A stretch of 64,000 nucleotides of DNA from Pleurostoma richardsiae. Lineage: Eukaryota > Ascomycota > Sordariomycetes > Calosphaeriales > Pleurostomataceae. Both the position numbers and the translations under genes were made by a program. Numbering within the stretch: position 1 is the first letter of the stretch; each line of letters opens with the position of its first letter. Under the pieces are notes generated by a model. The model saw only the letters and a program-made list of their open reading frames with translations, was not told the DNA's origin and did not search any database. Where the stretch lies: assembly GCA_030052745.1 (NCBI GenBank), contig JANBVO010000016.1:434001-498000 (forward strand), given 5' to 3'. Of the stretch, positions 7,060 through 52,055 are shown in pieces.

Positions 7060-7263
7060 GACACAGTCCAAAAGAGACGGTGGTAACCTTTGCTCATCAG
7101 TCGAAACTGCGCCGAATAGAAAGGTGAAATCTCATATATCGCTTGGCCTTGGCCAGTAAAAACTGACCATGGCTTCGCCATTACCCAAATGTCTCTCATA
7201 TGATACGCCCTTCGCAGGAAACTCCAGCCCGTGGTCATAAGATGCACAACAACTATTAGCCCA

Positions 7264-33291: not shown

Positions 33292-34348
33292 CTAGAGAAT
33301 AGCAATTGCATTGGCCAGACTGGCAACAGCACCGGGTAAGTTCCATGGTGTACTGACAAATAGGAAGGAGTATTTGCCAGCCTGTCTGCACTTCTCAGAC
33401 AAGTCCTCCAAGTCAAGCATTTCTCCAATCAAAATACCCCAGCAAGCTAGCAAGAACTCGTGTAGCATAGGAATCTGTGGGGGCCACGCCTCGAAAGCTG
33501 GTTGATCTCCGCCGACGACAGCAAAGTATTGATCATGAAGCCAAGTCTTCATTTCTTCGCTCGGCTCCACACCAATGGCATGTGGGTGCTCATCGGCCAC
33601 CCCTGCGAGCTCTTTTTCGAGGCCCTGGGCGAGGCTCTGGTTGTACTGGCGTATCCAGCCCGTACGTATCAGAAGAATATCACCGCATTGGAACTCGACC
33701 CCTGCCCAGTTCGCTACTGCTAGAAGCTGGTCGAGTGATATAGCGTAAGTCTCGAGCGGGTTGTATTTGAGACCAGTTTCCTCGGCCCAGCGGGCGAAAT
33801 CCAGAAGCACGCCTCGTCCGACGATTCCATGCTTGCTGGCTGCCTGTATCCCGCATCTTGTACTCGTGCTGGCGATCTCTTCTTGTGTCAGGCCGTTGTA
33901 GAAAGTCTTACAGGACTGATGCGCTACGTGCCGGAGGCCATCAAATTGAGATCCTGATTGTGTGTTCATGTGAAGGATATCATCATTGACCAGGATACCA
34001 CCGAACCCTTCTAGGTGTCGTTCGCATTCTCGTCTGCCGAAGCCGGGACGCTTTGGCAGGGTCATATCCCAATTCAAAGAGGAAACAAGCCCGTGCTTTT
34101 GCTCGTGAGCAATGGCCGATTTGACATTGTCTGACGTTAAGAGGTTCAAACGTCCGATCTGAACGGGGTTAGCAGCCGAGCATATTTCTTTTCATAACAT
34201 TCGTCCAAGACCGGCTGACCTCGTCGTTAGGTCCCCAAATCCATGCTGCCTCTCTCGGTACTCCGGAGGGCTTTTCTGATTCTACGATCTCTTGAAGAGT
34301 TGGGAGGAGCTCGCCTATTTTCAGCGGGTTTTCATATTGGGTAGGCAT
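33292..34348 (-). CDS. Cyclase-family (PF04199) metal-dependent hydrolase
   Basis: Two exons, 34348-34220 and 34158-33292, giving 331 aa. The joint restores WIWGPNDEIGRLNLLT. The family includes kynurenine formamidase-like and other hydrolases of cyclic or amide substrates, and is widespread in fungi as putative cyclases. The metal-site region reads MNTQSGSQFDGLRHVAHQ, in which the canonical His-Gly-Thr-His is altered to TQSGSQFD, as in the larger fungal subfamily. A later block is VGRGVLLDFARWA. The start was set at the ATG at 34348 because the longer frame begins with GTG. It opens segment A of the catabolic island and may hydrolyse a ring product. A CGGACCTCCGG sequence lies 415 bp upstream, at 34764. 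Confidence 0.83.
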
Positions 34349-35261
34349 CGTAGACTGAGGCACGATACTCTCCTTTTCTTGCTTAGATAGTGCACTGGGT
34401 ATATAAGGTCAGGTCTTGTGTGATGGCGCCCCCGCGGGCATCTGTAGTGGTTCCAGACCTCGGCCGGACCGACTTACCAGTGGAAACGCCAGGTGCGCAC
34501 CTTGCTTGTGAGTAACCAAGGACTGCTCGTATTCGACCCAGTAAAATTCTGACAGGTAACCTGTGTAAGCAATTGAGAAAGTAAAGTTTCTAGAATCTAC
34601 ATCTTGAGGAAGAAGACAGGTCCCTTTTGAATCCCAAACGGCATCCGGTCGTTCCACTCCACTAAGGTTTCGGCATGGTCCCGAGGTATCTAGCGGGATC
34701 ACAACCGCGGTCCGTCCTCTAGTCCCTCTAGCTACGTTCCGGCACATAGCGCCGGAATATGCCCGGACCTCCGGAATTGAGGGGCGCCGTCTGTGTAGAG
34801 GACCCTACCAAAAAGAACCGTCTCACTGCTTCTGTTTAATACGAATAAGATGCTAGTAAGAACTGTCTACCATTCAGTATTTCCTATTTTATTTTCCTGG
34901 AGATTGAGCTAATATAGCTACTGTACGGATAAGCTACAGCCCACACGCCCTCGAAATCTTTAGAAGGGCATATAGTAAAAACCGTCCATGAGCTAGGTCC
35001 TACACTGTATGTTGCCGGGTCAGTCGGAAGCAAAGGGGCATTTCTATTGGTATGGTCCTCCTTAATGAGCTTTACTTTCTGACAAATAACCACATTATAG
35101 TACCTACCTAGGTAGGCATCTAGCGCAGCCTCGGTTAGTCCATCTCCCCTGCAGGCTGTTTGATGGAGTGACAAGCTGCCATATTTCTAAGCGTAGAAGC
35201 TAGTGATCCATGTTCGATTGAAAGCCACCAGAAATCGAAATGAAACCACAAAAGATTATTA
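34349..35261. other. Intergenic, AT-rich, no gene supported
   Basis: Frames at 34409-34747 and 34884-35174 (minus) show no recognisable domain. The region contains a TACCTACCTAGGTAGG palindrome-like motif at 35101-35116 and a CGGACCTCCGG element at 34764. Confidence 0.45.
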
Positions 35262-36291
35262 TTAATATGTCGCTGGCATAGAGCAGAGTCTCCCGCCATC
35301 GGTGAGAACTACCATGCCGTTACAGTACGCTCCGGCCCTCGAGGCCAGGTAAAGGATGGTCCCGGAAATATCCTCAGCGTCACCCGTCCTCCCAGCAGGA
35401 ATGGTGGCCAATAATGACTCGCCATCAACTTCTAAGGCCGGATAGGACATATCCGTAGGGTATACTTGAGTTTATATCAGCATTGTTCATGGTGGAATAT
35501 CGAAGGGAACATCAACTTACAGCCAGGGGCAATGGAATTGCAGCGAATCTTGTAAGGGATGAGGTATGTAGACAGCTGCTTCATCATATGGATCACTGCA
35601 GCCTTACTCGTGGCATAGGCAAAACCGCTGGGAGCTTGCCGGTTGAAGGCGGTGATGCTCGCGGTCATGATGATCTGGCTGGAGAATCCGACATTCTTTT
35701 GCTTGTTCCCCGCGTCCAACAACTTTAAGAATGCAAGCACTGTATAGAACGTGCCGGCATTGTTGACCCGATAGGTACTCAGAAAGGACTCCAGTGATGT
35801 CTCCCACCAAGCGTCGACAACCTCGCAGAGTGACGCCCCTTTCGAGATCCGTGGCGGGTACGGTCCAGGTACGCCCGCGTTAGCCACGAGCAAGTTGACG
35901 TAGCCGACAGACTGTCTGATTCGCTCAGTGGCGGAGAGGAGACTCTCTTTCGAAGTGATGTCGCAGTGGATTGGCACCAATCTGCCGAATTTCTATTGTG
36001 CTTCGGTTACTCTAGGACTTTCATCAACAGCCCTCACTCGATCACCACTGACCGACTGGTTGCAGGCCTCATCTAGTTTGTCTGCATTCATGTCAAGTAT
36101 GAAGACATGTGCGCCGTTCGCTTCCAATGCTCTGGCCATAAGAAGTCCCAGTCCTTTGATCGTGGCTCTGTCAGTATCGTGGATGCAGGCGTCTCGTCGT
36201 CACGCTTACCTCCACCGGCACCTGTCACGGCTGCCACTAAGCCGTTCACATTAAATAAGCCACTGGCATTTGGGACGTCCTGGGATGCCAT
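35262..36291 (-). CDS. Short-chain dehydrogenase/reductase (SDR)
   Basis: Four exons: 36291-36210, 36153-36053, 35992-35521 and 35464-35262, giving 285 aa. The spliced N-terminus reads VNGLVAAVTGAGGGLG, the TGxxxGxG cofactor motif. LLVANAGVPG is the NNAG equivalent, and YATSK holds the catalytic Tyr and Lys. The C-terminus has PGLYPTDM and NGMVVLTDGGRL. It is a classical SDR, soluble, NAD(P)-dependent, most likely an alcohol/ketone oxidoreductase. It is divergent from the alpha/beta hydrolase at 36845; the shared 553-bp promoter region contains a CGGGGCTCCGGC zinc-cluster-type site at 36468. Confidence 0.87.
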
Positions 36292-36467
36292 CGTTGTTCG
36301 TTACAGTAACGGTGAACACTCTATGAAGACGGTAAGAGTGATAAAGACCTTGGCTTGGCTACTCTTGTTGAAACTGTGTGGAGGTATTGATGAAGTAGCG
36401 GGAGTTTGCATTGACCGCTCTAATTGCCGAGAGGACGGAGGCGTGATGCCTGGCGGAGTTGCCCGAC

Positions 36468-36479
36468 CGGGGCTCCGGC
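36468..36479. promoter_or_regulatory. Inverted CGG-N4-CCG site (CGGGGCTCCGGC)
   Basis: This matches the CGGNGCTCCGGY consensus shared by promoters of segment A. It lies between the divergent SDR (start 36291) and alpha/beta hydrolase (start 36845). Such inverted CGG triplets are the recognised half-sites of Zn2Cys6 dimers. Confidence 0.6.
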
Positions 36480-36844
36480 TCGACAGGTCGGCGGGCCGAA
36501 AATCGTCAAGGCCGCTCAAGAGTTTCGCTCCGGCACTTCAGCGTCGATAAATCTACGGCTGAGAGCAACGTATATGGTTTACTTCAGAGATAGTCAAGAG
36601 CCTCCTATTGAGTGCGATTCGCATAGCAAGATATGGGATTCATGAATTGCAAGTTCTAGGGATTTTGCGATAAAGTGTATATTGACGGAATTCCGAACAG
36701 ATCGAGGGCTGCAAGCTGGGGAACACTTAGACCCGCTAGGGCCCTGTAGCTGCCCCTCCATAAAAGCACGCCGCGCCCCTAGACGGTAGATCACCGCGTC
36801 CCGTGGGGTTCTAGCGAAGGCGTTTCTACCTGCGATACCTTACC

Positions 36845-37921
36845 ATGAGCCCGAACGACAGATTCGAGCTGCTCGACAGCACCCCAAGGTCTAGCTTGAC
36901 GACCATCAACATCGCTGGATTCTACGTATACCTCTATGGCGTTGAGGAACTGACGCCTGAGCAAGCTGAAGACACCGTAGTTCTATTTCACATCCACGGC
37001 CGTACAAGAACATACAAAGACGCCGAGGAGATTGCACACCATTTGCTAGAGGAATGCAGGAAGCGTGGTCCCACGAAAAAAGGTCTGGTGGTTGCTACCT
37101 TGGATAACCGGAACCATGGGATGAGAACGGTATTAGGTGCTATCTGTCTCGATTGCCTCCTCGGATAACTGACTAGATCAGATTGATGATGTCGCAATGT
37201 ACGCTTGGTTTGTCCGTTTTACGAAGAGGCTCGAAAACTCACGAATAATTACAGCCAGGACTGGAATGGTGGAAACCCTAGACATGCGTTCGTTCTCTCC
37301 ACGCTGTAGAGGTACGCGAATATCGCTAACAACACACACAGACAAGACATGCTGTCAACACTCGGTATGCACTCCCAAGTTCGAGAGACCTGAGAATGTG
37401 AAGTCTCACAATAATGAACAGATGGTATCGTAGCCGACGTCCAGGTAGTCATGACCTTCTTGGAGAGCTACGTCGATGGCTTGTTTCGGCCCACGGAGTT
37501 CATTGCCACAGGCTTGTCCTTAGGGGGGCACGTAACATGGGACGTCCTGGCCAAAGATCCTCGCGTCTCCAAAGCCGTTATTATCGTAGGATCGCCAGAT
37601 TTGACTAGCTTACTGCTCGATCGCCTCGGAGGATACCACACCGTCTCTAGCGTCCCAGCGGGGACGAAGGAGTGGCCAAAATCGATAGAGCGGCTCTATC
37701 TCGCCAGGGATGAAAGCGTGAAGACAGTTTCTGGTAAAAGAATCCTGATCTTGAATGGCGCTATAGATCCCCTGGTTCCTAGCAAGTTCACCCATGACTG
37801 GGTAGACAGCTTTGCGTCCAACAATGATGTTACTTTCATCGAGCAGGAGGACACTGGGCATTGGCTGTCCTGCCAGATGATGGAGAAGATCATTGACTGG
37901 ACTTTGCAGGCCTTAGCCTAG
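36845..37921 (+). CDS. Alpha/beta-hydrolase (esterase/lactonase-like)
   Basis: Five exons: 36845-37129, 37182-37198, 37255-37287, 37343-37365 and 37422-37921, giving 285 aa. The three middle exons are only 17, 33 and 23 nt. The spliced centre reads DWNGGNPRHAQDMLSTL then DGIVADVQVVM. The nucleophile elbow is GLSLGGHV. The acid is likely in NGAIDPLVP, and the catalytic His in DTGHWLS. HIHGRTRTY and TLDNRNHGMR are conserved in fungal relatives of this type. There is no signal peptide. Beside a Baeyer-Villiger-type enzyme it is a good candidate for opening the lactone or ester product. Its promoter holds a CGGGGCTCCGGC site at 36468. Confidence 0.85.
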
Positions 37922-38112
37922 ACCGGCAACCCTGGTTACGTTTCGTGTGACTCCTCAGGTCCGTGACTGAGACCAGGGAGTCGTCTGATCACACGATGGG
38001 AACCACCAAATACCCGTTGGTTGTGAAGTGTTGCTTGGGAAAGCGCCGTTGCCGGTGATGCCAAGGTCGGACGCCGACAGAAACTGGGGATCCGATAGAA
38101 CTGTGTCTTGCG

Positions 38113-40811
38113 TTAGAATATGCCAGGTAGTATTAAGGAAGGAGTCTCTTCAATCGTACATCTATCAATATCCAGCAGAGATTCATTGAAAATGTTATCA
38201 TCAGGTAACAGCCCATCAGAGAACCCCGCCAATAAGTCGGCTGGAAACTCTGACTGACATGCGGTGGCATCGGTTCTTGAATCTGCATCCCTCTGCCTCC
38301 GGGGGAGGATGTTCACCGTATCCCAAGTCATTCCAGTTGCCGCATAGTCGTTAGACAAAGAGTCTCCGGTGGTCCGGCTCTCACTTGTTTCTTGCCTTTC
38401 ATCATCGGTAGCGTCGGTGTCTTGTGCGAGGATCGTCGTCATCTCTTTCTTCACCACCTCTCGAGCCAAGTTCTCCAGTATAGACAGACTTTGGCTTGAG
38501 ACGACGACCTTCTTCTGTAATTTCCGTTGCATCCTGATGATTCTGGATAAGCCTTGCTTTGCCTCCCATGCCCTTCGACTTAGGGGAGCACTGCTAGCAA
38601 ACACACTCAGAACGACGCCCGCGGTGAAGAGGTGAATGCCGACATATGAGATTGCGTGAGCCTGTTGGCTGCGCAGGAATATGTGATGCTTCCCGATGTT
38701 CGATATCCTCAGAGCTGCTTTCCAGCAAGTATCAACTGACCGACTGAATACTCGATAAGACGACGCAGATTGTAGGCTGCTCTTCAGCGCTAGGATGGGC
38801 CGGTGAATCAAAATCAGGGCGTTGTCGTAAGCCAGCTGGAACAGGAGCGCCTGCATCCCATATATCCCTTTGCGCATCTTTATCCTTCGTTTCTGCACCC
38901 TTACAGAGTCCTTTTGAAGGTCGTCACGAACAGGGATAATAATACCATCCTCACCATCCTCATCGTCGTCACCAACCCCGTTTAATTCGTCGTAGGGTGG
39001 ATATGTCATATCATTAGAAAGTCGAAGTGCCTTTGGAAGGTCGTTGTACCAATTCTGCAACTTCATTTCCAGCCTCTGGACAGTATCGACGAGGTTTTCA
39101 TACTTCGACCCTGACTTCGCCGTCGTGGCCATTGACGCAGGAAAATCGTACTTCGACAACATGGCATTAGGCGTGTCGCTTGACTGTCGATAGAGAGCTG
39201 ATATTATCTCGCCGAGGATGATGTATATGTGTATCTTGTATGTCTGATATGTGAGCAATGTGACCTGCCTGCGGTTGCCACTGGCTAGATCCACCAGAGA
39301 CGGACCTTGGAGGTCGTCTTCGATCATCAGAAACGACGAACATCCCGGGGGTGGATAGATGTCATCTTCGGACGGCGGACCGGCTACACAATCGTCGTCA
39401 GATATTAGAAGCGGGAGGCCATAGCACATAGCCAAGAACCGATCTGAAGTGTGGACAGCCCAGAAAAGTCGCCGACGTAGCTGACATCTCTCGGCGGGAT
39501 CCATACGCTGGTAATAGGGAGAGTTCCAGCGCAACTCCGAGGACTCCTTGTGTAGACTCAAGGCTTGGGCGGCTCGCACAGTGCAGCCTGAGTTGGTCCA
39601 GGCTAGGTTTGACTCGCCATGGTAAAGATACAAACTGCCCAAGAGCAAGAGGACTTGGACAGTTGCTATCGTCCCGCAGGCCAGGGCATCGGTGCAATTG
39701 CTCCGTACCATGAAGAATAATTGGGAGGTTGCCTTGGAAAGGTCAAATTCTTGATTGTCTGTTGACTGGGGAGTTGGGAGATGGGATGATCGGTTGACGT
39801 CGAGGTAGATATCTCTGCACCGCTTGGTACGGGCTGAGTGTATCGAGGCATATCGACCTCCCATGACAACCACCGTCAAAATGAGCAGAGCAAATGTAAA
39901 GTCCTCATCAGTATTGGGGACAAGGTTGGGATCTTTTGCATAGACGTCCATTATGGTTCGGTAATGATGCAAGAAGTGGCCCTCATGAACCACTACCATA
40001 AACCAATGCACAGTGTTGAAGTAAACGGCGACAAGGTAGTCGGTCACAGGCCGCGGTGGGAGACGCGACAACAATGAAGCCGCTGATAATCGGCTGTACG
40101 ACCAGGGTAGCACAGCGCGATCTCGCTGATCAATGACTGTGCTCGCGGCTGGAGAGGGGACTGCCCCATTGCCGGGGATCGGTCTCGGGGATATTATCGC
40201 AGGGGAGATTCCTTCTTCCACTGAGGGGCAAATGGGGGAGTTCTCCATTAAATGACCAGGTGTCAGCGTGAAGAGCCTCGTGTTCATGCTGGATTCTTCG
40301 ACGGCAACCATGGCAACACTGTCGTCGACGCCATCTTGCTCCGGACTGCCAGCCTGAGCTTCGGCTGATGGTGATCGGCGATCGTTTCGGGCGACAGAGC
40401 GACGGCTTCGAGTGACTGACGCATTCCCAGCAGACTGAGTACTTGAGATCCGCCGAGCCTTTGCGGGACGATCATCTGAGGGGCCAGCCGGTGAGGGTCT
40501 AATACTCGGAACATCGCAGCTTATCTCAGTTCTGGCGTCGGTAACAGGCCGACTGATGCACTCTACGTCAGCCTTGACGCACACCGAACAGGGCCGGAAG
40601 GGATCGCACTGAGAGGGTCATGAGCGTGCGGCCACCATTGATAGCAAGCATGGGGAAGTACTTTTGCTTTCTGCTTCCGGCACCTCACGCACGCTCGCAC
40701 AATCTGCCGCGTCGTGATAGAGGTATCCTGAAGATGTTGACTAGCATCTCTGACCGGTGACGGCTGGACACCTAGCTCGGTTCTCTGGGGAGAGACGTTG
40801 ATGGTGGACAT
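38113..40811 (-). CDS. Zn(II)2Cys6 transcription factor, candidate regulator of segment A
   Basis: Two exons, 40811-40662 and 40608-38113, giving 881 aa. Splicing completes the zinc cluster ACVRCRKQKAKCDPF followed by CSVC and the sixth Cys (VEC). A serine/arginine-rich linker follows, with SVARNDRRSPS. The fungal-specific regulatory domain begins near residue 210 (AVYFNTVHWFMVVVHEGHFL) and includes YRVFSRSVDTCWKAALRI. A second acidic patch (DDDEDGEDG) sits mid-protein. The gene is head-to-head with the BVMO at 41574, and the region between them carries three CGGNGCTCCGG sites. Regulators of fungal catabolic clusters are usually placed exactly so; local pathway control and possible autoregulation are inferred. 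Confidence 0.9.
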
Positions 40812-41289
40812 GTCGCTGTAGAAGGGGCTCTCAAGGTTACATCTCAGTTCGGTGAAATGGAAGAGATGGAACGATAGGGAGGGCCCACGACGAGCTTGAA
40901 GAACGAGACGCTGTACTACAACGTGTTCTCCTGCCTAGACGAGAACACAAAGAATCATAGCACGTAGTCTTCGGTATCGTGCAGGAACGCCATCAGTGAA
41001 ACGACACTATCCCCATGGGGATGTGTATGATTGGGGGCCAGCAAGTGCACGCGGGGAACACGGTCTGCGGGGGATTAGTTTGCGGGGACTGGAGGCGAAG
41101 ACGCAAGCTAGTGAGACTGGCAGACTGGGTACGCGTCCACATGATCTGGCACGGAAGACTATTGGGCTGCTGCATGACAGTCTAGTCACACCCAGCTAAG
41201 CGTTGAACTAGGCGGATAAGCGCGAGGGCCCTTGGGATGTAGCGGAGGACCGGAGTTCGCGTCTTGCACAAATGCCGGCTTAAAGGATC

Positions 41290-41394
41290 CGGAGCTCCGG
41301 TGACCTAACGCGACAAGCGAACCACACAATGACGGATCGGCGCTCCGGTCGAGTGATGGCCCCTATAGGATCGTAAGTGACACGGCGCTCCGGT
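41290..41394. promoter_or_regulatory. Three spaced CGGNGCTCCGG sites
   Basis: Exact copies start at 41290 (CGGAGCTCCGGT), 41338 (CGGCGCTCCGGT) and 41383 (CGGCGCTCCGGT), spaced 48 and 45 bp. Each is an inverted CGG pair with four bases between, and each is followed by GT. The first is part of the perfect palindrome CCGGAGCTCCGG at 41289. They lie in the 762-bp region between the Zn2Cys6 gene and the BVMO. Confidence 0.72.
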
Positions 41395-41573
41395 GACGCC
41401 GGCTTTGTATCCGGACTCGAGCGATAATGCTCCTCCAAGTGAATTCAGAAGATGTGGCAACGACTGTTGTTATTTTACTTGAGTCTAAATCAACATGGAC
41501 GCCATTCTCGGTCCAACTTGTTTGAGCAACCTCGCAGACATTCTACGTTTCAACTTTGGTCTTCACGAACGAA

Positions 41574-43454
41574 ATGCCTCACGTCACTTCCGTCGATACT
41601 AGTCAGAGCTTTGCTGGCGAGGTGACCGAGAGTGTTCCTTACCATGTAGATGGCTTGAAAGCTGTCGTCAATGGCAACGGTAACGGCGTCCACAACACCC
41701 ATCCGACAGTTGCCAAGACCAGTGGGATCTTTTCCGTCGAGATTGACGATGCCCGTCCCCTGAAGGTCATCGTCATCGGGGCGGGCATATCCGGTATCCT
41801 CGCGGCAATTCGATTTCCTCGCCGCATTCCCAACTTGGACCTAGTGGTTTATGATAAGAATCCTGAGGTTGGCGGGACTTGGTACGAGAATCGGTATCCT
41901 GGAATCGCATGCGGTACGCTTCCTCCTGCATTACTCTTCTAGTAGTATGCCGTATTGACTCGTGATTTCGCAGATATTCCTGCCCATGTCTACCAGGCGT
42001 CGTTTGAGCCGAATCCAAACTGGTCACAATTCTACGCCTCAGGTGGAGAAATCCTCGAGTATTGGAAAGGCATCGTCGCCAAGTACGATGTACGGAAATA
42101 TATGAAGTTGAGCCACCGAGTCATCGAGGCTAGATTTTCCGAGACCGAATCCAAATGGCATGTCAAGGTCGAGAACTGTCTTACGGGCGAGGTGGTGGAA
42201 GATTCATGCGACGTCCTCTACGCTTGCATCGGCGCTCTCAATGACTGGAAATGGCCGGACATCCCTGGACTCTCGACTTTCAAGGGAAAGCTTCTCCACA
42301 GCGCTGCATGGGATGACGATTGGGACGCGACGGGACTTTCCGTGGCGGTGATCGGATCGGGATCCAGTGCCATCCAGATCGTTCCAGCTCTCCAGCCCAA
42401 GGTGAAACACCTCGATAACTACGTCCGCGGCCAGGCTTGGATTGCTCCCCCAATTGCTGAGGCCGAGGTGCGAAAGCATACTCTGACGGAAGCCAACTTC
42501 CATTTCACCGCGGACGAGCTGAAAGAGTTCAACGAGAAGCCTGAGGCCCTGTTGGCGTATCGCAAAAAGCTGGACAGCGAGATCCAATCCATGACCAAGG
42601 TCACGCTTCGAGGAGAGCTGGCCAACAAGGCGGCCGCAGACTTCACTCAGAATATGAAGGCCAAACTTGCCAAAAAGCCTGAGATCTTCGACAAGATCCT
42701 CCCGTCATTTACCCCTGGCTGCCGACGCATCACACCAGGGCCGGGTTATCTCGAGGCCCTGGCCAAGGATAACGTCTCTTTCGTTTCGGATGCTATCTCC
42801 AGTGTCACCGAAGAAGGCATCATTACTGTCGATGGTACCTTGCGTAAGGTCGATGCCATAATCTGTGCTACCGGATTCGATACCTCTTTCACGAAGCGCT
42901 TCCCCATCTATGGCCTCGGTGGACTGGACCTCGGCGCTAAATGGCAAGAATATCCAGACACCTACATCAGTCTCAGTACCCGTGGCGTCCCCAATTTTTT
43001 CGTCGCCCACGGTCCCAATTCTGGTCTCGGAGTTGGGTCGCTCAGCATCGTCCTGGAGCGGACGTGCGACTATGTCTGCGGTGTCGTGGCTAAGATGCAG
43101 AAGGACCGTATCGCCACGATTCAGCCAACGCAGGAGGCCTGTGATGGCTTTGTAGCGTACTGCAAGGAATACTTCGACAAGACTGTTTTCACGTTGCCCT
43201 GTCGGTCGTGGTACAAACGGGGTACAATTGACGGCCCTGTTACAGCTCTATGGCCCGGCTCCGCGCTTCACTTTGTCAAGACACTAGAGAAGCCGAGGTT
43301 TGAGGATTATGAGTACACGTACGTGGAAGGCAACAAGATGGGCTGGCTGGGCAATGGGTTCACCGTCTGTGAGCGAGATATCAAATCGGACAAGAGTCGG
43401 TATTTGGAGCCTGAGAATATCGATTTTCCGGCCGTCGCAATTCCGTCGACTTGA
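41574..43454 (+). CDS. Baeyer-Villiger-type flavin monooxygenase
   Basis: Two exons, 41574-41913 and 41974-43454, giving 606 aa. The first FAD-binding motif is VIVIGAGISGILAA, then GGTWYENRYPGIAC, which joins across the intron to DIPAHVYQASFEPN. The BVMO fingerprint is present as FKGKLLHSAAWD, in the F-x-G-x3-H-x3-W-[PD] form. The second Rossmann motif, for NADPH, is AVIGSGSSAIQIVP. The conserved late ATGFDTSF motif is also present. The enzyme should insert oxygen next to a ketone to give an ester or lactone, using FAD and NADPH in the cytosol. It is one of two BVMO-like genes in the window (the other at 62360). Three regulator-type sites lie 180-285 bp upstream of its start. Confidence 0.9.
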
Positions 43455-43730
43455 CCAGGTCAGAATATCCTGTAGATAGACTAGGTTTACAAACTCGAGT
43501 GGTTTTATTGCATTAGAAAATTGCGTTGCCATGAAGGGCGTGAGAGCGACTGTATCTGCGAGCGTGGAGAGCAAAATCGTCTGAGATTACCACTAACACC
43601 TACTGTAGCAATTGGAAGCATAGGACTCGAGCCACTGCCCCTAACATGGTGTTGTGTTTCACTGATTCACACCTCTTGTCATGAAAATATGGCATCGGTA
43701 AACAGAACGGCACATGGTCTCTGTTCGTAG

Positions 43731-43742
43731 CGGAGCTCCGGC
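43731..43742. promoter_or_regulatory. CGGAGCTCCGGC palindromic site
   Basis: An exact copy of the segment-A motif (CGG-AGCT-CCG) about 215 bp upstream of the zinc alcohol dehydrogenase start codon. Confidence 0.65.
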
Positions 43743-43953
43743 AGGCTTGAGAGTGCAGATGAGATGCGGGGGAAAGGAGCGCCGCGCAATAACGACCCTC
43801 CTGAGGTGCTCTGTTCCCCTCCAGACTAACGATGTCGCCACACTCTGCCAGCATTTATGTCTCGCTGGTTGTGGAAGTCTTGGTTTACCGCCAAAAAGCA
43901 GCCCACCATTTCCTTTCAGATTAACCTTGCCCATTTTGTCGCCTTGGCCAAAC

Positions 43954-45045
43954 ATGCCTGTCCTCACTTCGCCCCCGGCCACTCAGCGCGCCGTTGTGGT
44001 TAGGCGCACGGGCAAGGACTGGGATGTCGAAGTCAACGACTCATATCCAGTGCCCAAACTTGAGCCCGGCCAAGCCCTCGTGCAGTTATCCTACACGGGA
44101 GTCTGCCACTCCGATCTTTCCGGCATCAACAGTGGATGGAGCCGGCAAACGACATGCGATGTGCCTGGCCATGAGGGCGTCGGTCAACTCATCGCATACC
44201 ATGCGGATACGGACCCTTCTACGGTGCCGCCCCTGGGTACGAAGGTCGGAGTGCCTCTCATTCGACACCCATGCGGTTGCTGTGCCGTCTGCCACCTTCC
44301 CGACGGGGAAGTAATGTGCCCGAATACAGACTTCCACGGAATGCAGTCAAATGGCACATATCAACAATACATGGCCGTGTACACTTCATACTTGGTGACG
44401 TTGCCCGAGGCATCTGGCATCGACGATTCGTTCTTCGCACCAGTACTGTGCGGCGGTGTCACCGCATATAAGGCTTTGAAAAAATCCGGGGCAAGGAGTG
44501 GAGATTGGGTCGTCGTCGCCGGAGCGGGAGGCGGGCTTGGGAGCTTCGCGGTCCAGTATGGTGTGGCTATGGGAATGCGTGTGATTGGCATCGATACGGG
44601 AGAAGAGAAGCGGGAAGCAACACTGCGATTAGGAGCCGTGGCCTTTGTCGACTACCTTCTCGAGGACGACGTGCCTAAGACTATCTGCAGCATCACGGGC
44701 GACATTGGAGCACAGACAGTTATTGTCCTCGCGCCGAGCGAGACGACTTACAACCAGGCGCTTCAATATGTCGGCTATCAGGGATGTATTGTGTGCGTCG
44801 GGCTCCCACACGAGAATGTACGAATGGCAATACCGCCGGGGCTTGTCATCCACCGAGATTTCTCGATCCGCGGCAGCATGGTTGGCACTCGTAAGGATAT
44901 CGGTGAGGCACTTGGTTACGTGGTCTGCGGGCAGGTGAAACCCGATGTCTCCGTATATCAACTCGAGGATATTGCCGACATCTACCGTAGAATGGAGAGG
45001 AACGAGATTATCGGAAGGGCGGTTCTGAAACTCACAGCCGACTGA
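43954..45045 (+). CDS. Zinc-containing alcohol dehydrogenase (ADH1-like)
   Basis: Unspliced, 363 aa, starting at the ATG at 43954; the same frame is open further upstream but without family sequence. Catalytic-zinc ligands are in YTGVCHSD and the GHEGVG block. Structural-zinc cysteines are in CGCCAVCHL and VMCPN. The NAD-binding motif is AGAGGGLGSFAVQY. The length matches yeast-type ADHs. In segment A it could oxidise the starting secondary alcohol or the omega-hydroxyacid released after ring opening. The promoter holds a CGGAGCTCCGGC site at 43731. Confidence 0.92.
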   Translation: MPVLTSPPATQRAVVVRRTGKDWDVEVNDSYPVPKLEPGQALVQLSYTGVCHSDLSGINSGWSRQTTCDVPGHEGVGQLIAYHADTDPSTVPPLGTKVGVPLIRHPCGCCAVCHLPDGEVMCPNTDFHGMQSNGTYQQYMAVYTSYLVTLPEASGIDDSFFAPVLCGGVTAYKALKKSGARSGDWVVVAGAGGGLGSFAVQYGVAMGMRVIGIDTGEEKREATLRLGAVAFVDYLLEDDVPKTICSITGDIGAQTVIVLAPSETTYNQALQYVGYQGCIVCVGLPHENVRMAIPPGLVIHRDFSIRGSMVGTRKDIGEALGYVVCGQVKPDVSVYQLEDIADIYRRMERNEIIGRAVLKLTAD

Positions 45046-45449
45046 GGGAGGAGATAATTCCGTTCGATGATGACTTTCATATCTAGATATCAGTCCATAG
45101 CAGCACTGTGCCGAGCGGAGATTGTGACATACTCCGTTTGCAGCAGTTAATAGAGCTGAATGTCGATTCGAAACCGCTTGGACGAGATGGGAGTACAAAT
45201 GGGGATATCTATTCACTAAACAGAAGACAGTAAAGCTCTTGAAGATTCTTAGGCTCTTAGCACACTTCTTCTGCAATCAATTTTGATAGTCACGTAACTC
45301 TCAAAGCGTTTTGGTATATAAGGCTTCAAAAATGAATACCGAGCACGCGAAGTTGAAAGGCAAACATCGCAGTGACGCAGCTATCCTCGTGCCCCATTTT
45401 GTCCACGCAATACCAGCGTTCAAAGCATCATCTGCTAGGAAGGAAGCGC

Positions 45450-47332
45450 TCAGTAGGTGTGTACCTTTGAGTGCCGTGACATCTTCCGTAGACGCTTTCC
45501 AAAGATTGAGAAGAAAATTATACCAAAGATCGCTGGGCCAGTGACTAATCCCAGCTGTGTCATCATGGGGGGGATATAACCGTCATCCGCGACCCAGTCG
45601 ATTATGTAGTAACCCATGCCAAACTTGTAGAAAGGATTAGCTTCTCGTCACGAATATGATTCAACAATGGTAACATACTCCGAACGTGTTCTTGACCACG
45701 GTTGCAATGGTCATGATTTGGCCCGAAACCGGCTTATAGCAGTCGACAGCATACTATACAGTGATTAGGAGAAATGATTCGAGTCAAGTAGTTGAGGAGC
45801 AACAGGCAGGGATTACATACCGTGATTCCAATTGTCGAAAGGCTCACCGTCATGAGGCCAACAGCCCCGAAACCGACGACAATGACTGCTTCCCAAGGCC
45901 ACTTCCGATCGAAGCCGACCCCGACGACAACCATGCCGATGGCTGAGAGAATGACAAATGGTATCATAGACACCAAGCGCATTTCGGGCTCTCTGACACC
46001 ACGGTTTCGCTTTGTCTGGTAATTGGCGACCCAGTCTGACATGGGCCCGGCTGTGAACATACCGAGCGTGCCGCCACAGACCAGCGCCAGGTTGCTCAGG
46101 CCGACCTGGCCATCGTCGAAGTTGTAGGGTGGCGCGGTGAGAGCACCGGATTGGATGTAGTTCAATGTCAACAGCCCACTCGCAGAGAACGCGAGCATCC
46201 AAGCGCCGAATATGACGATTGGAAATTGAAGGAGACTGAAAGGCGTAATGATGTGCCTGGAGACTTTTGACATCGCATCTCTGTCGCCAGCTTGGATCAG
46301 CCGAAACTGTTGCTTGGTAGGACGTCCACGGCCCAGATATTGGTCGGTGTCAATGGTCTGACTGGTTTCACTGTCCGTATTTGCTGGCACTTCAAGTTGA
46401 CCAATCTGGTTCTTCTCACCCGAAGGCCTTGGGCTTGCTGCAGGGGCGACATCGGGGAGATGCCGGATATACTTGGTCTCTGGGTGTAGGAAGATCACCG
46501 ATAGAAAAGAGGCCGCCGCAAAAGCTGTGATGATCCAGTAAAACGTCCTCCATGTCGAAAAGTGCTGAGCACATGCGCCAGCAATCAAGGGACCAAGGAA
46601 CATGCTGTTGAAGAGGGCAAAGAAGTAGATGCCCATGTAAAAACCGCGCTCGTGGAGGAAGAAGACGTCGCTCACGACCATAGGCATGAGGCTTTCGCTG
46701 ATGGACATTCCGATGGAGATGAAGATGCGTGCGCCCATGAAGGAGCCGTATGACTGAGCAGCACCATGCCAGATCGTAGCTCCTAGGCAGATCAAGGAGC
46801 AGACGATCAGAATGAAGCGTCTTCCATACACCTCCGCAACAGGGACAAGGATGAAATTAGTGTATCCGGTTACGATGACGAGGGTGCCAGTCTACCGAAG
46901 CAGAAGTTAGTCGCCGCAGAATGTGCAAAATGGCTTCTGATACCTACCAATAGCGCAATGGCCTCAGCATCCTTGTTGAATTGGGCTTCAAAGACCGAAG
47001 TCAAAGGGGATACAGAGAGAGATGTGATAACGGAAGTCATGATGAAAAGGACTTCAATAACCACGACAATCCATTTCCAAGTTGGCGACCAATTCTGCTG
47101 CAAGTAAGCCAAATGTTGATAGTAAAGCCACGGTCATATCATTTACCAGAGGATCATCAGGACTGTGGGATGGCTGGGGAACGAGCACCATTCCTTCCCT
47201 GTCGTTGTGACTGTGGGTGAAGTGGGATCCCTCGAAGTCACGCATGACCTCCGTTCCAGGGTAAATTTCAACCTGGAGGCCGGGAGGAATGGATTGGGCT
47301 TCCGCGTCGTGGGCCATACTCGCGATCGTCAT
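45450..47332 (-). CDS. MFS transporter (DHA1-like)
   Basis: Five exons can be joined. The first is 47332 to about 47157; others begin at about 47099 (QNWSPTWKW), 46893 (TGTLVIVTGYTNF), 45763 (YAVDCYKP) and 45636 (FGMGYYIIDW). The stop is at 45450. The N-terminal tail is hydrophilic. The loop 2-3 signature appears as VAEVYGRR, and the second-half equivalent is AGPMSDWVAN. Helix pairs are visible throughout, and a long charged central loop (GEKNQIGQLEVPANTD) separates the halves. Fungal carriers of this layout are proton-coupled importers or exporters of small organics. Placed head-to-head with the SDR at 47641 over a shared CGGAGCTCCGGT site, it is a candidate importer of the pathway substrate. 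Confidence 0.86.
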
Positions 47333-47508
47333 CTGTAAGTCAAACCAAGTGTTCGAGAGGGTGTGACGAGTTGCACAAGCCAGCGCCATGCCGTGGCGGT
47401 CGAGTCTTGCGATCTTATATCAACCTCACCTGGATCGGGGCCATGGGGACGGCGTTCCACTCGAGTGTAAGGGGCTGGCTAAGACAAATGTAGCGTAGCC
47501 TAGCACTA

Positions 47509-47520
47509 CGGAGCTCCGGT
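47509..47520. promoter_or_regulatory. CGGAGCTCCGGT palindromic site
   Basis: An exact copy of the segment-A motif in the 308-bp divergent promoter of the MFS transporter (start 47332) and SDR (start 47641). A related CGGTGCTCCG lies just inside the SDR first exon, at 47652. Confidence 0.65.
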
Positions 47521-47640
47521 CCCCATGGGGTATCATGAGGGGTCCGCCCCCCCGGAAGACTTCTTTATAGGGCCCCGACCCTCCACGATTGAAGAGTGAA
47601 GCGTCCCTCAAGCCACGCAACCCCGCACGTCGAATCCAAT

Positions 47641-48519
47641 ATGCCAGAGTCCGGTGCTCCGTACTTCCAGCGTCTATTTTCCCTTTCGGGCAGGACAGGT
47701 AAGAAAACGTAAGCAAGTAGGAACCGAATTCCCGTATTGATCAGATCTTTAGCTCTTATCACCGGAGCTGGTAGGGGTGTAGGCTTTGCCTTCGCACGTG
47801 CCCTAGCCAACGCGGGAGCGGACATTGTGCTGGTCTTGCATCCCTCCGAGGATGATGGGGCGGCCGGGCAACTGAGGTCCATTGGCGTCAAGGCCTATAC
47901 CTTCAGAGCAGATCTCAGCGACCGCGAACAAGTCCGAAACTTGTTCCCTCGGGTCTGGGAGGCAGGAATCGTCGTCGATATCTTCATCAACAACGCGGGT
48001 ATCGCCCATCGCGAGCCTATACTAAGCTATCCCGAAGACAAATGGTACGACATAATTCAGGTCAATCTCTCGGCTGGTTTCGTGCTGGGACAGGCTTTCG
48101 CCCGCGATGTCGTCCGCCGCAAGGCCTCGGGAAAAATCATCAACACTTCTTCGGTCGGCGGCTTCTTGGCTAGCAAGAATACCGTCGCGTATACGGCAGC
48201 AAAGCATGGTATAAACGCTCTGACAAAGTCTTTCTCGACCGAATTCGCCGGGCTGGGAATCAACGTCAATGCTATCGCTCCAGGATATACGATCACCGAG
48301 CTCACTAGGAACAATCTTGAGAAAAACGGCGGCGATTTCTTGAAGCGGATTCCTATTGGGAGGTTTGCGGAAACCTCCGACCTCGAGGGTGCCGCGCTGT
48401 TTCTAGCTTCCCCCGCGTCAGACTACATATCCGGTCAGGTCCTTGCAGTGGATGGAGGAAGAATAGTCTCGGACTTTGAAGCAGACTTAGTCACAGTCGA
48501 TGCTGGCCAAAGGCCGTGA
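47641..48519 (+). CDS. Short-chain dehydrogenase/reductase (SDR)
   Basis: Two exons, 47641-47698 and 47753-48519, giving 274 aa. The 19-residue first exon ends LFSLSGRT, and the acceptor at 47752 keeps the frame into ALITGAGRGVGFAFARAL. A simple one-exon reading would begin at a TTG and lack the first strand. Classical SDR motifs are TGAGRGVG, INNAGIAH, Ser in NTSSVGGF, YTAAK, and the C-terminal SGQVLAVDGGR. It resembles 3-oxoacyl-ACP reductase or gluconate-5-dehydrogenase-like SDRs. It shares a promoter with the MFS transporter and is probably part of segment A. Confidence 0.87.
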
Positions 48520-49219
48520 TGAAAGCTGGAGGGACGTCCGAAAGCCTCGGCGCTGACCATTGGGCCACGATGACGCGAATGAAGGCTAATAGTGGTCGAA
48601 CATGCAGGTTGCCTTTGTCACCGAACCAATTTCATCTCGTATTATCCTAGGCAAGGTTTCCGCAGATTTAAAGAGTTTACCTCCCTCAATTCCAATTCAT
48701 TGTTGTATCGTCGATAATGCTGGTAATCCACTGTTCAAAATCCTCGCAAGTTCCGCTTCGTGGTTGTTGTCAACTCAACCAGATAATCAGCCATGTCCCT
48801 CTGTGATTCCCGTAGAAGGGCTAGTGCGAAGGCGCCGGTTTAGAACGGACGGTCTGACCGTCTGAGTGACCCCTGTTCCGGCTTGTTTCTTTCTTGAATA
48901 TGCCAATATACCTCTTCTCCGTCGGCGGCGTTGTTTAAGTCTTGAGACTACTTACGGCTGTACACCCCAGTATCATGCAAATATAGCAAGGCCTCATCCA
49001 TATACTCTTCGTCAGACCCAGTAGCCGCTAGAATTTAGCTCTATGTGATTCTACTGGAACTCGTTTTGTTTACATTGTTAGTCTACCCGGTTCACCACAC
49101 CACGCCGCTTCTCGCTTCCTCATGTCCGCCTGGGGCAACGCCGCCTCCGTCACGTTGTGGAGTAGATATGCCTCAGACGGTTTTGCCTGTAGTATGCTAT
49201 GATTAACTGAATCATGGGA
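48520..49219. other. Convergent intergenic region
   Basis: 700 bp between the 3' ends of the SDR and the phenol monooxygenase. It contains a perfect short inverted repeat GACGGTC-T-GACCGTC at about 48848-48862, able to form a 7-bp hairpin, but no supported gene. It forms the boundary between the two regulator territories proposed here. Confidence 0.45.
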
Positions 49220-51355
49220 TTATGCGTTACTTTTGTTCACAGGGAGGAGAAATCCTTCGAAAAAGGCGCGGATCCCTTCGGTATCTTCCAGTGAGGTGAT
49301 TTTCGAGATATCTGCGACCAGTGAGCGTCGTCCAAAGAGACAGATTTTAAGGGTTCACTGACACTGGTCTGGGCGCACAATGACCAAACAACCTTCCTTT
49401 GAGTCAATCCCGTATGACTTGTATGCGTGCCCGTGTCCTGAGTTGTAACTGTCGTCATCGGCAAAGGTCTTGTGAAGGCCTGTGAATGAAGGTCAACCTT
49501 GCACGCATTCATTTGATGACAAGACAATAGATGTGCTTAATGAGAGCACAGAAAACAGCCCATAACTGGCAAGCCGACGATGAAGTCCGTGTGTTGTCTT
49601 ACACTTTATCCCCCATTTGCCCGTGACCGGGGTGAAGAACTGCGGGATCTGCTCCTGTTCGACCGACCTGCGATTCGATGCGAGCACCAGCAGCCCTTGT
49701 ATGAAGCTGTCAGGGTCTACGTCTTTAGGAGTGAACTTCTGGACGATGACATCCAGCTCTAGCCCGATCTATTTGCCATGATTCGTCAGCAACTCTTCTC
49801 ATGTATCATCAGAATCCTGGTGGACTCTGCACCAATGGGCACATGGGGTTTGGTGCAGGACACTTCTAACAACCTTTGACAGTCTCCTGGCGACTTTCTC
49901 GTCAAGAATATCCCCGCCAAATACCACAATGTGCCACCTAGAGTCCGATGGCAAGGCTCTCATCAATTGCATAGCTCTCGCATCGCTCAGTCGTACAACC
50001 TGGGCGCTCGGGAACCGCATCCCAACCTCTAGGCCTGTAGCCAGTTTCTTCGCGTCATCACTTAGCGACACTAGTTGCGACGTGTCGTACTTAACGCCCT
50101 GCCCAGCAGTGTACCTCCCAGCCTTGACAAACTGGTTCTTGAACTCTTCTGTGGTAATCCCGTGAGCCTGTCGGTACGTTGACGAGAACAACTTCGTAAA
50201 GAAGCGGTCGAACTCGATCAGATCGTGGGCCGTCCTCTGCCGCTCAGATACGTACGTGTCTAAGATTTCCGGTGATGTCTGTCCCCTCAGAACGGCGGCG
50301 AGCTTCCAGCCGATATTATATCCATCCTGTAAGCTCACATTCATACCTTGTCCAGCCTTGGGCGAGTGGGTGTGGCAGGCGTCACCTGTCAGAAAAACGC
50401 GGTTCCCTTTACTGAAGAAATCGGCCAAACGCTGGCCGATCGAGTATGCAGACCACCAGACTGTCTCGACTATTTCTAGAAAATAGGGATTGAAGATGCG
50501 GCGAGCCTTCTCTTCTAGGGTTGAAAAAGTGACGTCTTTAACAGATGCACCTTGAAGTTCGACGTAGAATCGCACCAGATAGTCTCCCTCGCGGGGAATG
50601 ATCATCAGGTTCCCAGCGTCGGAATGCAATATGGCTTTCTTACGGATATCGGGAAAGCTGGTCCTAGGATAGATGTCCATAACACCCCAGACGGCATCTG
50701 TGCTGTCACCGACCATATTGAAGCCAAGCGACTTCCGGACTACGCTATGAGCTCCATCGCACGCCTTTGCGAACTCAATCATTAGGTCTCACACTGGCAG
50801 CGAGAAATGTGAAATGCGTTGGAGGAGACGTACCAGCACATATTTGGACTTGAATACCTTTTCAGTCCCGTCAGCAGTCACAGCTTTTGTGGTAACGCAG
50901 GAAGCCTCGTAGTCCTCAGCAGCCGTATCATCAACTTCCACATGCTTGACCTCGACTCCGTAGTCCATCTCGATCCTGCCGGAACACCGCTGTATCTCCT
51001 CGATCATAAGTCCATTTAGCCTGGCCTGATTGAGGATCACATGCGGTTGATGGCTCAGACCTGGCTCTAGATCTGGTGCGTAGTGCGTCCGCTGAATGCT
51101 TCCCTTGCCGTCCGATGCCCAGAAGGCAACCTCTAGGACATGGTATGCCTCCTTGAGTAGGCTCTCCGAGATTCCAAAGCTTTCGAAGATCTCGACGGTC
51201 CGACACTGCACACCGTCTGCCTGGCCGTTCTTCAAGGGACCTGGCCGGCGCTCCACTATCTTGTAGTTGACACCGCAGCGTGCGAGCCACAGGGCAGCAC
51301 AGAGGCCTGCGGAGCCACTGCCGCAGATGAGGACGTCGACGCGTTCTTCTGCCAT
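49220..51355 (-). CDS. Phenol 2-monooxygenase-type flavoprotein
   Basis: Five exons. Exon 1 is 51355-50834, exon 2 runs from 50764 to about 49880, and a third begins around 49767 (LDVIVQKFTPKDVDPD). The fourth carries LHKTFADDDSYNSGHGHAY. The last carries ISKITSLEDTEGIRAFFEG, ending at the TAA at 49222-49220. The product is about 640 aa. It has the group A flavin hydroxylase fold: DVLICGSGSAGLCAALWLAR, VLACDGAHSVVRKSLG across intron 1, and FLTGDACHTHSPKAGQGMN. The C-terminal thioredoxin-like domain matches fungal and yeast phenol hydroxylases. It would hydroxylate a phenol ortho to its OH using NADPH and O2. A frame ending at 49799 reads into intron and is not the true terminus. Confidence 0.87.
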
Positions 51356-52055
51356 GGTGACTAGGTGATGGAGAGATGATTCGGCAGGTAGAGGCGTTGT
51401 ACTAACGTGGGCAGAAGGGTATGATGTTGACGTTGATCACACTAACGATCGGAACTGACAGAGGTTTATGAAAATCACCTGCGTAGATAACACACATCAA
51501 GTCTGTCAGCAACTCATTGTTTCTTTTTGTGATTGACGTTGAGCTAGAGCGCTGACTCCAGATCATCGTAACTCATTACCCGAGACCGAATGCCGGACAG
51601 GGTTTTGCGAGATCGTGAAAGTCCCAGCGCCTCGGTCTCCCCTCCCTTCGGAACTCTCCCTATCTCCGCACTTCGCAGCTGAGCTCGAGTCGGAAAAGGT
51701 CCTATTCGTCCTTACATGCTGGGGTAATTAGTGGCCCATGCCCCTTGGCCACCCTAGTGACTTAGTGTGAGCCACACTACATTGCGGGGACAAGATCCGC
51801 CGCGGGAGACCGCTGGGAACGGAATGGCATCCGCAACCCGCCCGTTGCGCCCGGACGCCCGGACAAGTTCTTGGCCACTCCGCTGATGATAGTGTACCTC
51901 CGGAAAGTAGAACCCTGGGAGACTTGCACCCGAATTGGTACGGGCGCATAAGATGCCAAATAGTATCTAGTAATGTAGTTCCTGTACTTTATCATGTCTC
52001 GCATTCGGGTCATAATTATCCCCTGCAAGACCCAATATCGGAGCGAGTCGCAAAA
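51356..52055. promoter_or_regulatory. Divergent promoter region
   Basis: 700 bp between the phenol monooxygenase and the beta-lactamase-like esterase. A CGGGAGACCG element (CGG-N4-CCG) occurs at 51803, but its core differs from the segment-A motif and such a loose match can arise by chance. No gene is supported. Confidence 0.4.

Follow-up and report, generated by a model that had tools for sequence, protein, structure and literature searches.

In fungal carbon regulation, competition between a pathway activator and the carbon repressor CreA was first proposed for AlcR and has since turned out not to apply in every case (PMC8844935); the same source, in the part drawn on here, gives the CreA motif as SYGGRG. 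The site of the cellulose regulator CLR-1/ClrA is tabulated in a review as CGGN5CGGNCCG (PMC5468973), and Gsm1 is reported on CCGG and, together with Rds2, on CCGGAGTTA (excerpts of PMC12719309). Type I Baeyer-Villiger monooxygenases (BVMOs) are recognized by a fingerprint quoted as FxGxxxHxxxW(P/D) (PMC3762062), and the physiological substrates and roles of BVMOs have been called "widely unknown" (PMC4498894). The locus described here is best read as a fungal switch of a well-known kind; what appears to be new is this example, probably a zinc-cluster regulon dedicated to one pathway of ketone/ester catabolism.

An exact count of CGGNGCTCCGGY over the window, by which we mean the whole 64-kb stretch of DNA that was analysed, returned six matches, every one on the + strand and intergenic within a block of seven predicted genes at 35.3–48.5 kb (SDR1, alpha/beta hydrolase, Zn2Cys6 regulator, BVMO, zinc ADH, MFS, and SDR2) (Table 1). 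All six coordinates given in a preliminary description were correct, as was the placing of the sites in promoter regions: by the gene models, the nearer start codon is 127–279 bp away, and five start codons have their nearest site at 127–218 bp. Each gene of the block adjoins a site-bearing promoter and the window's six exact sites all lie in the block, which supports, as far as a single regulon is concerned, the earlier proposal that the 38113–40811 regulator controls 35.3–48.5 kb. The densest group, of three sites, falls in the regulator's own promoter, common with the BVMO. We think it likely that the six sites serve as operators through which this Zn2Cys6 protein, the predicted binder, governs its own gene and a catabolic regulon dedicated to it. 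Two weaker relatives had also been named: CGGTGCTCCG at 47652 is no promoter element but coding sequence in the first exon of SDR2 (MPESGAPYFQ), and the element at 34764, which does lie upstream of a likely cyclase start with two mismatches to the motif, is uncertain as a member of the regulon.

Table 1. Predicted genes of the block, the six exact sites and one weak relative (positions in the window)
Feature	Position	Strand	Remarks
SDR1, short-chain dehydrogenase	35262..36291	-	PF00106 6.8e-22, main exon; stop by eye
Alpha/beta hydrolase	36845..37921	+	288 aa spliced; GLSLG elbow
Zn2Cys6 regulator	38113..40811	-	881 aa spliced; Fungal_trans PF04082 4.4e-19; Zn_clus 1.1e-07
Type I BVMO	41574..43454	+	606 aa spliced; FKGKLLHSAAWD fingerprint
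Zinc alcohol dehydrogenase (ADH)	43954..45045	+	363 aa, single exon; PF00107, PF08240
MFS transporter	45480..47332 (approximate, by eye)	-	PF07690 1.6e-25, main exon
SDR2	47641..48519	+	274 aa spliced
Site 1, CGGGGCTCCGGC	36468..36479	+	divergent SDR1/hydrolase promoter; 182 bp to SDR1 start, 372 bp to hydrolase start
Site 2, CGGAGCTCCGGT	41290..41301	+	regulator/BVMO promoter
Site 3, CGGCGCTCCGGT	41338..41349	+	regulator/BVMO promoter
Site 4, CGGCGCTCCGGT	41383..41394	+	regulator/BVMO promoter; BVMO start 186 bp away
Site 5, CGGAGCTCCGGC	43731..43742	+	ADH start 218 bp downstream
Site 6, CGGAGCTCCGGT	47509..47520	+	divergent MFS/SDR2 promoter; 182 bp (MFS) and 127 bp (SDR2) to starts
Weak relative, CGGACCTCCGGA	34764..34775	+	two mismatches; ~415 bp upstream of likely cyclase start

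The motif had been expected well below once per 64 kb, and 100 dinucleotide shuffles of the window agree (mean 0.14, maximum 2, none with six). The genome (39,432,242 bases) holds 81 matches, six in the block and 75 elsewhere (a figure in which one palindromic place on C54 appears twice, once per strand). Extrapolated to the genome, the shuffle rate of 0.14 per 64 kb predicts ∼86 chance matches; the count outside the block is thus close to chance, and the block stands out. A reversed-pattern control gave 165 matches genome-wide. From the other 75, we would expect 0.021 sites per 11.05 kb (Poisson P of six or more, 1.2e-13), and when 81 sites were placed at random 20,000 times, no 11.06-kb window contained more than four, a number reached once. 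Allowing two mismatches leaves a slight excess (54 vs. 41.8 expected; three of 100 shuffles reach 54), and dropping the final Y (CGGNGCTCCGG) yields 155 matches in the genome (71 + 84, each palindromic place being entered twice), with no new place in the block among the 100 matches listed. An unbiased word search (gapped 10-mers with one wildcard, four cluster promoters, 2123 bp) put GGNGCTCCGG and CGGNGCTCCG on top, with seven and six copies across all four promoters; both are the same word as the motif. The best of 60 shuffles reached three promoters and three copies, and the best of 60 random window sets reached four promoters and four copies, once. The site is concentrated, as in a regulon, in the promoters of linked genes, with about the chance number of copies elsewhere.

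Although the motif is not common in the genome, 42 of the 75 outside sites are in coding-like DNA (score of 3 or more) and 33 are not, and all six block sites score below 3; this threshold was chosen after the scores were known, and the score is rough: a set of points in known exons, which partly served for training as well, falls below 2.4 in one-quarter of cases. Any regulator of the site would need either to pass over the 33 non-coding-like places or to act on them. Given this roughness and the near-chance frequency of the motif away from the block, we claim no distant target. Three exact sites, one of them coding-like, lie within 14.2 kb on C94, where the three frames scanned gave a single Pfam match, to a carbon-nitrogen hydrolase. 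Counting against the proposed regulon, 6 kb at the regulator's nearest paralogue in the genome (on C50, 43% identity) contain a single CGG-N4-CCG but lack the exact site. Groups of sites were also absent from 19 other BVMO-bearing stretches (L020–L038, some overlapping), five of which have one CGGNGCTCC each and fourteen zero. A BVMO paralogue on C2 was considered as a second locus, with seven and eight CGG-N4-CCG in two overlapping stretches, and was rejected: the sequences are not the motif. That locus has 60%–61% GC, and other spacings are frequent there too (N0, 5–6; N7, 5–6).

Gene identities are by family, from models built on the window sequence with some ends set by eye, and most of the seven genes encode enzymes that look suited to ketone breakdown. 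The BVMO carries FKGKLLHSAAWD at 216, between Rossmann motifs GAGISG at 69 and GSGSSA at 241 (the second GxGxxA, not GxGxxG), as in type I enzymes; its best PDB match is cyclohexanone monooxygenase 6era, and the top PDB matches of the ADH are alcohol dehydrogenases. The hydrolase matches PF12146 weakly, under the cut-off, and the fold predicted for its orthologue P0155 (mean pLDDT 89.6) points to serine esterases, e.g., YjfP and TT1662, and also to monoglyceride lipases; this predicted fold fits an ester-cleavage step. A 5′ intron immediately upstream of the ATG is possible in the MFS gene. In the proposed regulon, the regulator would most likely bind at its own promoter and at the BVMO, ADH, SDR1/hydrolase, and MFS/SDR2 promoters, and the genes would be turned on jointly when a ketone-type substrate or product is present. 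The MFS carrier would take up the substrate, the ADH or an SDR would convert alcohol to ketone, the BVMO ketone to ester or lactone, and the alpha/beta hydrolase would hydrolyze the product, after which ADH/SDR would oxidize the released alcohol; CreA would impose glucose repression via the same DNA as the activator.

MFS carriers frequently export; the one here could likewise be an exporter instead of an importer, and detoxification could be what the genes are for. A biosynthetic or detoxifying block, with its regulatory logic unchanged and hence overlapping our preferred explanation except in the pathway, seems to us possible but on the whole unlikely: BVMOs do occur in fungal biosynthetic clusters, e.g., that of aflatoxin (PMC3762062, in part), but the ten frames scanned at 33–51 kb included no backbone synthase, and ADH, BVMO, and hydrolase make up the textbook ketone-to-ester-to-alcohol sequence.

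The zinc cluster of the regulator is complete (CVRCRKQKAKCDPFRPCSVCVKADVEC at residue 41, CX2CX6CX5CX2CX6C) and conforms to the Zn2Cys6 pattern CX2CX6CX5-12CX2CX6-8C, and the Fungal_trans match in Table 1 covers the middle-homology region; the zinc cluster matches Pho7 best, and Leu3, Ppr1, Gal4, and Put3 weakly. Synteny was judged from locus tags and from the size of the longest contig of the protein matches. Hydrolase, regulator, and BVMO bear consecutive tags in Zalerion maritima (MKZ38_008851-53), Sporothrix bragantina (SBRCBS47491_003923-21), and S. curviconia (SCUCBS95973_005429-27), and adjoining tags are found for regulator and BVMO in S. eucalyptigena (SEUCBS139899_002238/39) and for regulator and hydrolase in Penicillium nucicola (N7511_003790/91). 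For at least 16 of 34 regulator matches the longest contig is as long as that of a listed BVMO or hydrolase match; 18 of 34 are without such a partner among the BVMO and hydrolase matches listed (for the BVMO, 120 of 540), including all six from Lipomyces and the two from A. flavus with visible locus tags (P0025 and P0031). Among the matches listed, the regulator is linked in Sordariomycetes, Aspergillus, and Penicillium; the only pair from Limtongia with equal longest-contig size is BVMO and hydrolase, and no Lipomyces regulator has such a partner. Dactylonectria and Thelonectria, which we take to be former Cylindrocarpon relatives, hold regulator and hydrolase relatives. In two non-fungal collections scanned with the regulator alignment A1, none of the stretches that matched a pattern (eight in genome_contigs, 41 in viral_contigs) encodes a relative.

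Given the consecutive tags in three other species, assigning the site to the cluster regulator is reasonable, and the earlier suggestion that the cluster's own Zn2Cys6 protein is the likely binder gains from its complete zinc-cluster domain and from the way it neighbors BVMO and hydrolase genes in other fungi. It is improbable, in our judgment, that these operators are bound by another protein, zinc-cluster or not, encoded elsewhere, with the cluster regulator using a different, weaker site. A zinc cluster alone does not reveal binding specificity, and at another Zn2Cys6 gene, on C48 (L107; Zn_clus 7.2e-11), one exact site precedes a possible start by ∼80 bp; a BVMO paralogue follows some 5 kb further on. 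However, the motif is present there in one copy only, and its genome-wide number is close to chance, whereas the cluster regulator recurs next to BVMO and hydrolase and has the three-site group in its own promoter.

The site had been described as palindromic, with the regulator binding inverted CGG-N4-CCG. The whole core is symmetric in only three of the six copies, the remaining copies being asymmetric; all six have an invariant right half, GCTCCGGY, and a left half that varies. Half-site symmetry of the Gal4 type is lacking at pairs 2 and 6 from the center, which are complementary in three and two of the six sites, respectively, with the right arm invariant there. Each of the six can be read in two ways, as CGG-N4-CCG or as a direct repeat, CGG-N5-CGG. 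The cluster promoters contain nine inverted N4 and ten direct N5 (three and two, respectively, with the sites masked), against 0–5 for every other spacing or orientation. CGG-N4-CCG as the sole reading is unproven, and we reject it because CGG-N5-CGG is equally enriched; binding to an inverted palindrome is not supported as stated. After the zinc cluster, an 11-sequence alignment inspected by eye has no conserved heptads and a divergent linker. The NirA-type site is CTCCGHGG and was ruled out by eye, the sixth letter being G in the motif. FarA recognizes CCTCGG, which occurs zero times in the four cluster promoters and five times in four other intergenic pieces.

The CreA/Cre1 consensus SYGGRG lies, as a sequence match alone, within all six sites, on both strands in three of them, and the cluster promoters contain 12.25 matches to it per kb (8.0 with sites masked) versus 4.81/kb over the window. 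With the consensus inside each site, glucose repression via the same DNA is likely, and the regulon is probably carbon-repressed through the sites. We find it very hard to believe that they are CreA/Cre1 sites that make a pathway-specific factor unnecessary: the right half, read on the − strand as CCGGAG, fits the consensus, which is present throughout and enriched, but CreA requires six loose letters, whereas the present site has ten invariant positions, one C/T position, and a constant distant CGG, and CreA sites would be expected in eight SYGGRG variants, not as CCGGAG in one fixed context. Local duplication or chance can be dismissed almost entirely as the source of the repeated words, for although 41281–41304 and 41374–41397 are 79% alike over 24 bases, so that duplication may account in part for the three copies in the BVMO promoter, the other promoters have just the 12-base word in common, the four flanking bases on each side differ, and a word common to four promoters exceeds all 60 shuffles.

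Tentatively, and with a good deal of doubt, the regulon under the cluster regulator may be taken further: the hydrolase–regulator–BVMO module could be a conserved regulon for ketone catabolism in fungi that has gone undescribed, its composite operator being an asymmetric zinc-cluster site, CGG-N5-CGG, with a built-in CreA site. Relatives of the module proteins span Lipomyces, Limtongia, Aspergillus, Penicillium, and Sordariomycetes. If true, induction and carbon repression would converge on the same bases in each promoter. The block would offer a compact test of an activator and CreA competing for, or sharing, one element, a model that does not hold universally (PMC8844935). Together, site, regulator, and gene set would give a direct route to inducer and substrate; the site predicts responding genes, and the recurring triad can be traced across genomes.

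Among known systems, CAMO of Cylindrocarpon radicicola is likened to this locus as a type I BVMO, and no regulator or cluster for it was found in the portions of the literature searched. CLR-1/ClrA is likened by its site: the CGG-N5-CGG core geometry occurs in all six sites, but the NCCG extension in none (PMC5468973, in part), and the target genes differ. Among gluconeogenic zinc-cluster proteins, the Gsm1/Rds2 sites come close to the CCGGAGC of our sites, whereas AcuK/AcuM sites are given as CCGN7CCG and the six sites have a spacing of 5 (PMC12719309, in part). As in Gal4/Ppr1/Put3-type dimers, CGG-Nx-CCG can be read in all six sites, but here the right half is fixed and the left is not, the spacing is 4, and no coiled coil is evident by eye. 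The AlcR site differs from the site here, as do the enzymes of the regulon. What the AlcR ethanol regulon of Aspergillus nidulans does have in common with this locus, as read here, is a set of catabolic genes governed by one pathway-specific activator, AlcR itself being under CreA (PMC8844935).

The 12-bp word CGGNGCTCCGGY occurs six times in the window against 0.14 expected, and six copies were reached in none of 100 shuffles. The preliminary description was right about the six coordinates and about a chance expectation well below one per 64 kb. With two mismatches permitted, the excess was slight (54 matches against 41.8 expected; three of 100 shuffles attained 54), which leaves the near-exact form as the only unusual one. 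We also tested every 10-letter word containing a single wildcard across the four block promoters (36293–36844, 40812–41573, 43455–43953, and 47331–47640; 2123 bp in total). The top words, GGNGCTCCGG (seven copies) and CGGNGCTCCG (six copies), were each present in all four promoters. The best word in 60 shuffles had three copies in three promoters, and 60 sets of random window pieces from outside 33–53 kb gave at best four copies in four pieces, once. The same word was recovered without being sought.

A genome-wide count, proposed in the preliminary description, covered 39.43 Mb in 136 contigs, the window being 434001–498000 of contig C45, and returned 81 exact matches (46 + 35), with one palindromic place on contig C54 counted twice; 75 lay outside the window. 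The window shuffle expectation extrapolates to ∼86, which puts the pattern close to chance outside the block; a reversed-pattern control had 165 matches. The other 75 sites imply 0.021 expected per 11.05 kb (P = 1.2e-13 for six there), and even tenfold that density would give 0.004 expected six-site groups (windows in 1-kb steps). When 81 sites were placed randomly 20,000 times, the fullest 11.06-kb window held four, once. These results confirm that the six-site observation is real. Scored with a rough codon model built from 28 long window frames (a quarter of known exon points fell below 2.4), 42 of the 75 outside sites were coding-like (score 3 or more, a cut-off chosen after the scores were seen) and 33 were below; the six block sites scored −1.3 to 2.6.

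Every exact site of the window is inside a block of seven genes, summarized in the table.

Exact sites, block genes, and flanking genes, with the distance from the modelled start to the closest exact site
Feature	Coordinates	Strand	Distance (bp)	Remarks
CGGNGCTCCGGY copies	36468, 41290, 41338, 41383, 43731, 47509	+ (all)		exact match
Cyclase (PF04199)	33295-34350 (33.3-34.35 kb)			flanking; without exact site
Short-chain dehydrogenase SDR1	35262-36291	-	182	
Alpha/beta hydrolase	36845-37921	+	372	GLSLG elbow; relatives carry this name
Zn2Cys6 regulator	38113-40811	-	484	
Baeyer-Villiger monooxygenase (BVMO)	41574-43454	+	186	type I fingerprint
Zinc alcohol dehydrogenase (ADH)	43954-45045	+	218	
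MFS carrier	about 45.48-47.33 kb	-	182	
Short-chain dehydrogenase SDR2	47641-48519	+	127	
Phenol-2-monooxygenase-like enzyme	49200-51356 (49.2-51.36 kb)			flanking; without exact site
Beta-lactamase-family gene (PF00144)	52058-53562			flanking; without exact site

A weaker relative at 47652, noted in the preliminary description, sits in the first exon of SDR2; another, at 34764, has two mismatches and precedes the likely start of the cyclase by ∼415 bp. The three flanking genes may form an adjacent set for aromatic degradation. Around two of the three BVMO-promoter sites, 41281–41304 and 41374–41397 form an imperfect 24-base repeat (79%), hinting that this array may have grown by local duplication. 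The SDR1/hydrolase promoter holds an extra right half-site, GCTCCGGC, at 36527–36534 without a left CGG, ∼60 bp from the site at 36468.

Under an inverted CGG-N4-CCG reading, pair 2 from the centre is complementary in three of six sites; for pair 6, which lies immediately beyond the core, the count is two. The right arm is invariant at both pairs. A one-directional CGG-N5-CGG fits all six. Block promoters contain nine inverted N4 and 10 direct N5 pairs, and other spacings occur 0–5 times. By eye, an 11-sequence alignment revealed no conserved coiled coil behind the regulator's zinc cluster, which is intron-interrupted and whole after splicing. Given the half-arm mismatches, the N5 fit, and no evident coiled coil, we describe the site as apparently asymmetric, with inverted N4 and direct N5 both fitting. 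The sites had been proposed as palindromic operators of one catabolic regulon; a single regulon under the resident Zn2Cys6 regulator is likely, and the palindrome, with its asymmetric arms, is not established.

Elsewhere in the genome, the nearest paralogue of the regulator, on contig C50 with 43% identity, is accompanied in the 6 kb examined by a single CGG-N4-CCG, which is not the motif. Among 19 other BVMO-bearing stretches (L020–L038, partly overlapping), five had one CGGNGCTCC each and 14 had none. A GC-rich BVMO-bearing stretch on C2 with seven to eight CGG-N4-CCG was rejected as a second locus, its sequences not being the motif. On contig C48 (L107; 631600–641500), one exact site at position 1164 of the stretch lies ∼80 bp before the possible start of another Zn_clus-domain gene. 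Next, at 4182–9663, come an MFS gene, a paralogue of the BVMO with 39% identity, and an aldo/keto reductase. The paralogue, with CGGGGCTCC upstream, is some 5 kb beyond the exact site and Zn_clus gene. Perhaps L107 is a second ketone cluster; by itself its lone site is no evidence. Three sites outside the window (L050, C43:862; L051, C44:110949; L053, C45:862) share flanks ATATGGCGGAGCTCCGGC(T/C)AGGAA and are repeat copies, perhaps subterminal, two being equally far (862) from a contig start. Contig C94 has three exact sites within 14.2 kb (69473, 78647, and 83709), one coding-like; a carbon–nitrogen hydrolase frame adjoins the first.

Protein searches with the regulator, BVMO, and hydrolase gave 34 regulator matches, and 120 of 540 BVMO matches were listed. 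All three proteins had consecutive locus tags in Zalerion maritima, Sporothrix bragantina, and S. curviconia. In S. eucalyptigena the regulator's tag directly adjoins that of the BVMO, and in Penicillium nucicola that of the hydrolase. A locus tag was visible for seven of the 34, five of which had a BVMO or hydrolase neighbour; two A. flavus regulators had neither among the matches listed. Taking equal contig size to mean the same contig, 16 of 34 had a longest contig matching that of a listed BVMO or hydrolase match (for example, all three at 592700 in Thelonectria olida), and 18, including all six Lipomyces, had no such contig among the matches listed. This co-location supports the regulator as a putative local controller; it bears on the regulator, not on the site. 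The closest solved relatives of the BVMO are cyclohexanone monooxygenases. The predicted structure of a hydrolase orthologue (P0155; 25 sequences, mean pLDDT 89.6, pTM 0.90) resembles the serine esterases YjfP and TT1662 (TM 0.63–0.68 on query), and also thermophilic and monoglyceride lipases.

Overlap with the motif of the carbon repressor CreA must be added to the earlier regulon model. CCGGAG, a match to the CreA motif SYGGRG, is on the minus strand of all six sites, and SYGGRG is additionally on the plus strand of three. Its density was 12.25/kb in the four block promoters (8.0 with sites masked); the window as a whole had 4.81/kb, and four further intergenic pieces 5.5/kb. We infer that CreA may act on the block sites. 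Excerpts of PMC8844935 give SYGGRG as the CreA motif, note that about half of CreA targets lack it, and report that competition between CreA and AlcR is not universal.

No paper among those listed in open-access literature searches describes this gene set with this site in its title or abstract opening; three papers with CGGN5CGG concern fungal biomass degradation, and six others, judged by title, bacteria or their lipopeptides. The cellulose regulator CLR-1 has the site CGGN5CGGNCCG in excerpts of PMC5468973 and PMC6498484, whereas all six sites here lack the terminal NCCG. An A. terreus salicylate cluster combines a BVMO with an SDR (excerpts of PMC7842363), but with other partner genes. The block probably belongs to a known type, the pathway-specific zinc-cluster regulon.
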